Positions 12,183 through 13,792 of a stretch of 60,854 bases of DNA are shown one piece after another. The stretch is from Pseudoflavonifractor phocaeensis (GTDB taxonomy: Bacteria > Bacillota > Clostridia > Oscillospirales > Oscillospiraceae), in contig NZ_JACJLC010000011.1 in assembly GCF_016901955.1 (NCBI RefSeq), forward strand, positions 1 through 60,854. Direction: 5' to 3'. The position numbers and the translations under genes are program-made. Within the stretch, counting starts at the first letter, position 1. Each line of letters begins with the position of its first letter. The notes beneath the pieces are model-generated. The model had not been told where the DNA came from and searched no databases. It saw only the letters and a list, made by a program, of their open reading frames with translations.

Positions 12183-13538
12183 ATGGCATTCACGATCACC
12201 AATCCTTACCTCCAGGGCGTGTATGATGGCGTCTGCAAGAAGAACTCCCACGAACCCGAGTTCCTCCAGGCCGTGGGCGAGGTGCTGGAGACCCTCCAGC
12301 CCGTGTTCAACCAGAAGCCCGAGCTGGCCAAGATGGGCATCATCGACCGCATGGTGGAGCCCGAGCGCAGCCTGCTGTTCCGGGTGTCCTGGGTGGATGA
12401 CAAGGGCCAGGTCCAGGTGAACCGGGGCTACCGGGTGCAGTTCTCCACCGCCATCGGCCCCTCCAAGGGCGGCCTGCGGTTCCACCCCTCCGTCAACCTG
12501 TCTATCATCAAGTTCCTGGGCTTTGAGCAGGTGTTCAAGAACTCCCTCACCGGCCTGCCCATGGGCGGCGGCAAGGGCGGCTCCGACTTCGACCCCAAGG
12601 GCAAGAGCAGCAACGAGGTCATGCGCTTCTGCCAGTCCTTCATGACCGAGCTGCAGCGCCACATCGGCCCCGACACCGACGTGCCCGCCGGCGACATCGG
12701 CGTGGGCGCCCGGGAGATTGGCTACCTGTTCGGCCAGTACAAGCGCATCCGCAATGAGTTCAACGGCGTGCTCACCGGCAAGGGCCTGACCTACGGCGGC
12801 TCCCTGGTGCGCACCGAGGCCACCGGCTACGGCCTGTGCTACTTCGCCGACGAGATGATGAAGGCCGCCGGCAAGTCCTTCCAGGGCCAGAGCGTGGTAA
12901 TCTCCGGCTCGGGCAACGTGGCCATCTACGCCAACCAGAAGGCCACCCAGCTGGGCGGCAAGGTCATCGCCATGAGCGACTCCAACGGCTACATCGTGGA
13001 CGAGAACGGCATCGACTACAAGGTCATCCAGGAGATCAAGGAGGTCAAGCGGGCGCGGATCAAGACCTATCTGGACTACGTGCCCACCGCCAAGTATGTG
13101 GAGGGCTGCCAGGGCATCTGGACCGTCCCCTGCGGCATCGCCCTCCCCTGCGCCACCCAGAACGAGCTGCCCCTGGAGGGCGCCAAGGCTCTGGTGGAGC
13201 ACGGCTGCTTCGCCGTGGCCGAGGGCGCCAACATGCCCTCCACCCCCGAGGCCGTGGCCTGGTTCCAGGAGCACGGCGTCCTCTTCGCCCCCGCCAAGGC
13301 CTCCAATGCCGGCGGCGTGGCCACCTCCGGCCTGGAGATGAGCCAGAACTCCATGCGCCTGAGCTGGAGCTTTGACGAGGTGGACCAGAAGCTCCACGGC
13401 ATCATGACCAACATCTACCACAACGCCGCCAAGGCCGCCGAGGAGTACGGCATGCCCGGCAACCTGGTGGCCGGTGCCAACATCGCCGGCTTCATGAAGG
13501 TGGCCGACGCCATGATCTGGCAGGGCGTGTCTTACTAA
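12183..13538 (+). CDS. gdhA: NADP-type glutamate dehydrogenase
   Basis: The 451-residue enzyme makes glutamate from 2-oxoglutarate and ammonia with NAD(P)H. The family signature [17 protein letters not shown] with the catalytic lysine is at about residues 122-138, followed by [20 protein letters not shown]. The Rossmann part ([17 protein letters not shown]) begins near residue 240. Length and N-terminus ([15 protein letters not shown]) fit the hexameric short-chain class. AAAGGAG precedes the ATG. Codon use is strongly biased, as in highly expressed genes. Its last 38 bases recur after a repeat element downstream. Confidence 0.95.
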
Positions 13539-13571
13539 GCAGAACGTCTATAGCAATATAACCATTTCTCT

Positions 13572-13601
13572 GGGAGCTGCGGCAATGCCGCAGCTCCCTT
13601 T
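13572..13601 (+). terminator. gdhA-proximal terminator
   Basis: A 12-base stem (GGGAGCTGCGGC, loop AAT) is followed by TTT. It ends gdhA transcription before the repeat element. Confidence 0.75.
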
Positions 13602-13792
13602 GCGTCGGCCACCGGGGCCCCATCGCAGATGGGGCGGCGCGGTAAGCGCCGTCCAAGGGTTTTGCCGCAAGGCAAAACCTTGATGCCGGGCGAATTCATT
13701 TCGCCCGAGCAGATAAAACGATTGGGGCCCCCAACCCGTCCTGCGGGTTGGGGCTGGCCGACGCCATGATCTGGCAGGGCGTTTCCTACTGA
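13602..13792 (+). repeat. Three-hairpin element, copy A, with duplicated gdhA 3' end
   Basis: The element starts with GCGTCGGCCACC (13602-13613), an inverted copy of gdhA bases 13499-13510. Three hairpins follow: GTTTTGCC/GGCAAAAC (13659-13678), GGGCGAAttcatTTCGCCC (13688-13706) and CCCCAACCCG/CGGGTTGGGG (13729-13753). Then comes a truncated copy of the last 38 bases of gdhA (13755-13792) with three differences, all silent (GTG/GTT, TCT/TCC, TAA/TGA). The same architecture recurs at 39296-39519. Confidence 0.8.

Follow-up and report, generated by a model that had tools for sequence, protein, structure and literature searches.

Small folded units carrying recoded gene ends probably enter conserved genes of Flavonifractor by guided insertion

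The 60,854-nt stretch of DNA analysed here (the window) contains two genes, gdhA and uvrC, whose products are identified by NCBIfam profile matches as an NADP-specific glutamate dehydrogenase and UvrC, and each gene adjoins a short folded element followed by a second copy of one of its own ends (Table 1). The repeated end of gdhA is 92.3% identical over 39 nt, while the uvrC repeat covers 66 nt (the leader with its ribosome-binding site and 12 codons) at 86.4% identity; BLAST within the window returned the two repeats at E-values of 2e-8 and 7e-15, respectively. The elements themselves are 73% identical over 64 nt and lie on the same strand, their host genes being on opposite strands, and the DNA of both is predicted to fold (z of -9.8 for 13570-13800 at gdhA and -5.8 for 39285-39460 at uvrC). 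Together with the gene end that each carries they form units of 254 bp (gdhA) and 233 bp (uvrC). A hairpin similar to the terminator-like one of the gdhA unit was seen by eye in other occupied genomes. The initial annotation had reported that the duplicates differ from the intact genes only silently, and this is certain: all three codon differences at gdhA (GTG/GTT, TCT/TCC, TAA/TGA) and all three at uvrC (TTC/TTT, GAT/GAC, GAG/GAA) are silent, an outcome with a chance of about 1 in 7,000 given random changes and the silent fraction of 22.7% expected from uniform mutation. No tRNA or tmRNA was found in the window, and Rfam returned no family there at gathering score.

Table 1. Features of the two occupied genes and of a related core in the window (R1, covariance model from alignment A1 of 11 elements of the window's own genome)
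Feature	Position	Strand	Evidence
Distant degenerate core relative	9241-9366	-	R1 35.2 bits, E 1.4e-5; no duplicate found
gdhA, target gene, intact, ending in the unit-borne tail	12183-13538	+	ORF; NCBIfam PRK09414.1, E 2.2e-228
Inserted unit at gdhA (near tail, terminator, guide, folded core)	13501-13754	+	Polarity from empty sites
Near (unit-borne) gdhA end	13501-13539	+	Direct repeat
Terminator-like hairpin within the gdhA unit	13572-13598	+	Inverted repeat
gdhA guide, GCGTCGGCCACC	13602-13613	+	Exact reverse complement of the gene across the insertion point; also family statistics
gdhA core, conserved, folded, G+C hairpin at its end	13632-13752	+	R1 match, 105.8 bits
Far gdhA end, displaced native tail	13755-13793	+	Far copies and flanks resemble empty sites
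uvrC, target gene, start carried by the unit	37419-39257	-	TIGR00194, E 5e-166
Inserted unit at uvrC, element orientation (near gene start, leader, guide, core)	39221-39453	+	
Near (unit-borne) uvrC start, ribosome-binding site and 12 codons	39221-39286	-	Repeat
uvrC guide, 15 nt, CATGCCCTGCCGCTG	39296-39310	+	Exact reverse complement across the insertion point
uvrC core, conserved, folded	39323-39448	+	R1 match, 102.7 bits
Far uvrC copy, displaced native start	39454-39519	-	Repeat; flanks in relatives

The two elements belong to a larger family. A pattern of the shared hairpin occurs at 16 places in the 3.50 Mb genome, 12 of them element-like by eye, and nearly all of these adjoin a gene end with a diverged duplicate; R1 yields 29 matches in the same genome at E ≤ 1 and 26 at E ≤ 0.001. 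Among 40 genomes R1 was positive in 21 (own genome included), comprising all 20 of the genus, with 8 to 63 copies per genome, none of the five from other genera of the family and one of the 15 from other families of the order. An order-wide draw, filtered more strictly than the 40-genome set, gave 29 positives in 295 genomes, or 16 of 148 genera. We refer to the positive genus as Flavonifractor because the three closest named relatives of the gdhA protein (93-97% identical) come from F. plautii ATCC 29863, Flavonifractor sp. An306 and an uncultured Flavonifractor. Carriage by phages or plasmids was considered and rejected. Matches to viral and plasmid sequences comprised one viral contig and two large plasmids named Pusillibacter faecalis and Vescimonas fastidiosa; two 'phage' records bearing the element look chromosomal from their ORFs and ends (prfC; the start of lepA).

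The folded structure of the core, which is about 120 nt long, is real. Across 61 distinct aligned cores 98.8% of cells were paired, double changes numbered 286 (95.6 in shuffles), and pairing was lost when the partner was slid; the count was made on 58 hand-picked loci with an alignment fitted to the model, which biases it towards the tested structure. At 10 loci searched with Rfam at E ≤ 5, the neighbourhood of the elements gave sub-threshold matches only (among others, BSnc120 at 38.5 of 114 bits and RT-15 at 29.5 of 82 bits in L011; GcvB at 18.8 of 42 in L002), and one true T-box was found away from the element, in L008. The distant relative listed in Table 1 and loci L035, L264, L265, L267 and L318 represent a related core subtype that adjoins transcription terminators or tRNA genes, not gene ends; it is partly tandem, and in other families it occurs with a repeated GGACGGTTAAAATCGATATT-like motif.

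Read in the orientation of the element, the order of parts is gene body (X), near gene end (Y), often a terminator, guide, core, G+C hairpin, and far copy of the gene end (Y') with its own flank, where Y carries its own stop codon, or its own start codon and ribosome-binding site. We compared 158 copies, made up of 23 from the own genome (without L038 and L041-L045), 27 of the 28 in L046-L073 (without L065) and 108 of the 111 matches in L154-L253; since these were the best-scoring copies, decayed ones are under-represented. A duplicate starting between -8 and +10 nt from the core end was present in 131 of them, and the 27 lacking one under this rule include tandem arrays and copies whose far end has been lost. 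Aligned duplicates span 28-215 nt and are mostly diverged. Counts of guides, site preference and core similarity rest on 129 of the 131 duplicate-bearing copies and codon counts on 128, the remainder lying too near a contig end or having a low frame score; related genomes are not independent in any of these family-wide counts. When the near end was sought up to 900 nt upstream, a reach that would miss much longer units, none of the 131 copies had an integrase-length insert, and a whole-locus search of 20 copies found no longer ORF-bearing unit.

With reading frames chosen by codon usage, the 129 copies were grouped into 55 target families, of which 47 lie at gene ends and eight at gene starts. 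Twenty representatives could be named, mostly conserved housekeeping genes: gdhA, uvrC, pyruvate:ferredoxin oxidoreductase, infB, lepA (end and start), ilvN, comF, rnhA, gpmI, argG, ribonuclease III, an MGS-like protein, enoyl-CoA hydratase, an ABC transporter, enolase, a response regulator, truB, an EF-G-like GTPase and an acetyltransferase. The two ends of lepA are occupied by different unit lineages (start, L203 and L319; end, L021). The 52 non-redundant insertion sites are unlike one another, with a weak GA|GG preference that comes partly from the definition of the break.

Which of the two gene ends arrived with the unit can be read from sites that lack it. Among 20 genomes the gdhA site is occupied with both copies in 12 and empty in five, two hold only a decayed unit (G006 and G009) and one is cut by a contig end; infB and lepA show the same pattern of occupied and empty sites, and the empty ones are found in close relatives. 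Flanks were scored (as mean best) at gdhA, infB and lepA for 12, 7 and 5 occupied and 5, 6 and 10 empty sites, respectively, without L295 at gdhA, L304, L308, L309, L312 and L314-L316 at infB, and L340, L348, L352 and L354-L356 at lepA (L353 being kept). Near 3' flanks resemble other near flanks (51.4, 81.9 and 93.4 in the same order of genes) and score 15.0, 15.7 and 18.4 against empty sites, where shuffled letters give 14.8, 16.0 and 16.0. Far flanks, in contrast, score 36.8, 96.3 and 54.6 against empty sites (shuffles 16.6, 15.6 and 16.6). The near and far flank of one genome are unrelated in infB (12.4) and lepA (15.2). At gdhA they are partly alike, both within a genome (38.2) and between genomes (44.5), and in G008 and G014 an almost identical tail and terminator occur twice; we tentatively attribute this likeness to units inserted before older ones, as in the tandem arrays seen elsewhere. 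In G004 the sequence behind the far gdhA copy is about the same terminator as at the empty sites of G002 and G018. At uvrC, inspected by eye, nine of 18 readable genomes are occupied, and in G000, G005, G006 and G019 the far flank looks like that of empty sites, with a different sequence at that position in G002, G015 and G018. Because far flanks match empty sites and near flanks match them about as poorly as shuffled letters do, the intact near end is very probably the newcomer, and the truncated far copy with its flank the displaced native original. Two origins had been offered for the copies in the initial annotation; a truncated copy arriving from another strain does not agree with these sites, while replacement of the intact gene's end around an old copy is borne out by the empty sites at gdhA, infB and lepA and, in part and by eye, at uvrC.

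The silent divergence seen in the window extends to the whole family. Near and far ends differ at 380 codons in all across 128 copies (20 genomes); 318 of these differences (84%) are silent, against 22.7% under uniform mutation, and 62 are non-silent, of which 23 lie within nine bases of the start of the duplicate, a boundary that is itself uncertain. In the nine cases that could be judged, from gene families with enough members, the non-silent change lies in the far copy in eight, and far copies also decay by other routes (a stop codon in lepA of G007; loss in others). Since the differences are overwhelmingly silent, and the non-silent ones that could be judged fall mostly in the far relic, near and far ends derive from two diverged genes that were functional until insertion, as had been proposed from the window alone. 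A long target-site duplication made on insertion and followed by drift would suit the 33 of 128 copies without any coding difference, as well as those gdhA genomes in which near and far flanks are alike, but drift of a free copy would yield mostly non-silent changes, silent changes prevail even where a copy has one or two differences (42 to 10), and within a genome the near flank shows no relation to the far one in infB and lepA. This origin is untenable for the family as a whole and we consider it extremely improbable, though it could hold at single loci. At single loci an old insertion may also have stayed functional in some other way.

Silent-only divergence in many copies would also be expected if the unit switched in and out within one lineage, such that both ends are used in turn and, being under selection, diverge silently in place. 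Near and far ends of one genome are indeed somewhat closer to each other (6.6, 5.3 and 11.9% divergence for gdhA, infB and lepA) than ends from different genomes (10.0, 11.3 and 15.4%; gene tail 8.1, 11.7 and 15.7%), distances calculated without L304, L308, L309, L312 and L314-L316 for infB and without L340, L348, L352 (second repeat family, see below) and L353-L356 for lepA. Variants private to a genome are common to its near and far copies at gdhA in G003 and G015 and at infB in G012. The closeness of near and far ends, and the 62 non-silent changes, speak in part against two separate sources, but the preponderance of non-silent changes in far copies (eight of nine) does not fit alternating use of both ends, nor does the decay or loss of several far copies, and we regard switching as quite unlikely. 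Because some genomes have private variants in both copies, local exchange between near and far copies probably also occurs. Single near or far copies are not assignable to donors, since the tails are only 36-84 nt long and near/far divergence is close to that between genomes.

The guide matches, as reverse complement, the gene sequence on either side of the start of the duplicate. Its score is at least 9 in 112 of 129 copies, at least 11 in 91 and below 9 in 17, compared with a count of 2 of 129 on the same strand, 6 at the junction of a random other copy (a control that may include copies at the same gene) and 0 at sites 60-250 nt further upstream in the same gene. Complementarity extends over 13.1 nt on average (about -6 to +8) and reaches up to about six bases into X, outside the unit (of the 112 copies, 93 include position -3 and 42 include position -6). 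Where near and far ends differ within the footprint, the guide follows the near copy 31 times, the far copy once and neither once. Where genomes differ in X, it agrees with its own host in 32 entries, with another genome in 10 and with neither in 11, these entries being collapsed per copy and position and not independent. Agreement with Y could come partly from co-inheritance, as both lie in the unit. On these patterns we think it quite probable that the guide has a working role, because it tracks both the near copy and its own host's X. The footprints contain 25 mismatches, of which 15 are transversions, beyond any wobble, and 10 are transitions, nine G-U-tolerant and one of the opposite type, an asymmetry that rests on those 10 changes. 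The 17 copies with low guide scores and the 15 transversions weigh against the guided model proposed below.

Cores group by gene. The nearest core comes from the same gene in 97 of the 102 copies whose gene is also occupied in another genome, and mean identity is 84.3% for the same gene in different genomes (179 pairs) against 61.5% between different genes of one genome (540 pairs). Because the grouping is by gene and not by genome, the units do not hop freely; each is tied to one gene and spreads among genomes. Gene-tied cores, fresh far copies and empty relatives together point to repeated homing rather than one old insertion. Plain homologous recombination, for example after DNA uptake, could instead spread an allele of the form X-Y-unit-Y', with guide and core having another role, such as regulating the gene, or being traces of template switching that made the first unit. 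Units are gene-specific across genomes, as alleles would be, and each of the three enzyme families for which a control worked is missing from some of the element-bearing genomes tested (see below). Recombination nevertheless leaves three things unexplained: the silent near/far difference at first insertion, native far flanks beside unit-specific near flanks, and a junction-spanning guide in 112 of 129 copies; we consider it unlikely. The broader suggestion of the initial annotation, that the element is tied to recombination between lineages at gene ends, stands in the sense that the incoming end comes from a diverged gene and displaces the native one.

We postulate, as the probable explanation, that gene-specific small mobile units, too short for an enzyme gene, replace gene ends by guided insertion. 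A unit, consisting of a recoded gene end Y, a terminator or leader, the guide and the folded core, would insert at a fixed point between X and the native end Y', linking X to its own Y and leaving the old end as a relic; Y, coming from the working copy of that gene in the unit's source lineage, would for this reason differ silently from Y'. The guide, carried on a folded strand of single-stranded DNA or RNA, may pair with the target strand across the junction of X and Y' and so fix both the target and the ends of the unit. One guide could in this way mark all substrates, namely the inserted junctions X-Y and core-Y', the core-Y junction of a circle and the empty junction X-Y'. Units would move between strains and species into the same gene, that is, by homing, with cutting and joining performed by a trans-acting enzyme of host or other origin. 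The proposal in full, a programmable gene-end replacement in which a guide of about 13 nt pairs with both sides of the cut, a trans-acting and possibly host enzyme joins the ends, and units home between species with genes kept intact, falls somewhat short of probable in our judgement, and single-strand guided joining by a trans-acting enzyme is slightly more tentative still. Because the core pairs contain 32 G-U cells and A-C cells are rare, the acting molecule is likely to be the element strand itself, as single-stranded DNA or RNA, a reading towards which the search model, built on that strand, also leans. The target would be DNA and not messenger RNA, since the element strand is antisense to the gene at gene starts.

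As candidates for the required enzyme we rejected the Y1 HUH transposase, reverse transcriptase and IS110 recombinase, each of which is missing from some element-bearing genomes. The Y1 transposase (PF01797) was found in eight of 19 element-bearing and two of 15 element-free genomes, the reverse transcriptase (PF00078) in 14 of 19 element-bearing genomes (not in G000, G060, G030, G054 or G073) and the IS110 recombinase (PF01548) in 12 of 17 (not in G013, G309, G030, G054 or G073). The gaps in reverse transcriptase also speak against a group II intron, a retron or a diversity-generating retroelement. IscB (PF14239) was found in none of 17 element-bearing genomes, with control genomes equally silent. 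G030, G054 and G073, which represent one genus from another family of the order, have many copies of the element, 88 in G030 near the scoring limit, and all three enzymes were not found in them despite these copies.

The closest comparison is with IS200/IS605 elements. According to the parts of one account consulted (PMC5934647), the ends and target of IS608 and ISDra2 are read by base pairing and the donor is sealed precisely; in IS608 a folded single strand bears a 4-nt guide next to a hairpin that pairs with the cleavage site and the target, and engineered pairing extends the guide to 12-17 nt. A folded strand with a guide complementary to the cleavage site (112 of 129 copies here) would be common to both. 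The native 4-nt guide, however, differs from the guide of about 13 nt lying across the junction here, the fixed tetranucleotide target (TTAC) differs from our 52 unlike sites, and those parts of PMC5934647 mention no carried gene end. Y1, furthermore, is present neither in the unit, which is too short for it, nor in every element-bearing genome.

Integrative islands and prophages enter the 3' end of tRNA or protein genes, where the attachment site restores the end and a displaced partial copy remains. Our units likewise restore a gene end and displace the native one, but they are about 230-250 bp long without an integrase gene, have more than 50 target families, use gene starts too and carry a complementary guide. 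In IS110 elements the bridge RNA is folded and has a target guide of comparable length, with the junction near the middle of the paired stretch, whereas the units have one contiguous guide to one strand and no recombinase inside. The omega RNAs of IscB and HEARO elements have their guide on the 5' side of a folded scaffold; in our case the guide lies inside the unit and is often perfect to the occupied allele, which would mean self-cutting, and Rfam matched HEARO neither in the window at gathering score nor at the 10 loci at E ≤ 5. Homing and group I introns also spread gene-specifically into conserved genes with a guide spanning the joint of the flanks, but at gene ends the unit often contains a terminator and the gene is complete without splicing; group I or II introns had no Rfam match in the window (gathering score) or at the 10 loci (E ≤ 5). 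A MITE was rejected as well, as the inverted match is to the target gene and the duplicates, 28-215 nt long and mostly diverged, are not short and identical. A limited search of the open literature found no published description of such an element, and we know of none among the compared systems that combines a long guide with a carried gene end. Because each compared known kind fails a tested defining feature, and this combination is not known to us from any of them, we regard the elements as a new kind.

Other repeats occur at some of the same places. A second, unrelated-looking family (ending CTTAACGCTGCGG|TGG) duplicates infB or lepA ends at L047, L053, L176, L308, L348 and L352; by eye the differences are mostly silent and no guide was seen, and by a simple rule it shows gene-end duplication at seven of 34 places in the examined loci. 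Gene-end replacement may thus be used by several repeat families. A third folded repeat type, ending GACGAGG|TGG or GCGAG|ATGG inside gene tails, interrupts far copies in L011, behind the second core (about 1850-2000), and in L305 (infB of G003). A short palindromic repeat family (GTAGGGGCCGATG...CATCGGCCC and GTAGGGGCGG...) lies in the window at 27126-27173, 42483-42522, 45243-45269 and 45381-45420, and a similar sequence is present behind the far uvrC copy in some relatives.

If the proposed explanation is true, the units would constitute mobile DNA of a class that specifies its target through a long base-pairing guide and keeps the entered gene working by means of the end that is brought in, and common gut bacteria would possess a naturally programmable insertion system. 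Even without the mechanism, repeats exchange the ends of infB, lepA, gdhA, enolase, uvrC and other genes, a point of relevance to phylogenies, annotation and strain typing.
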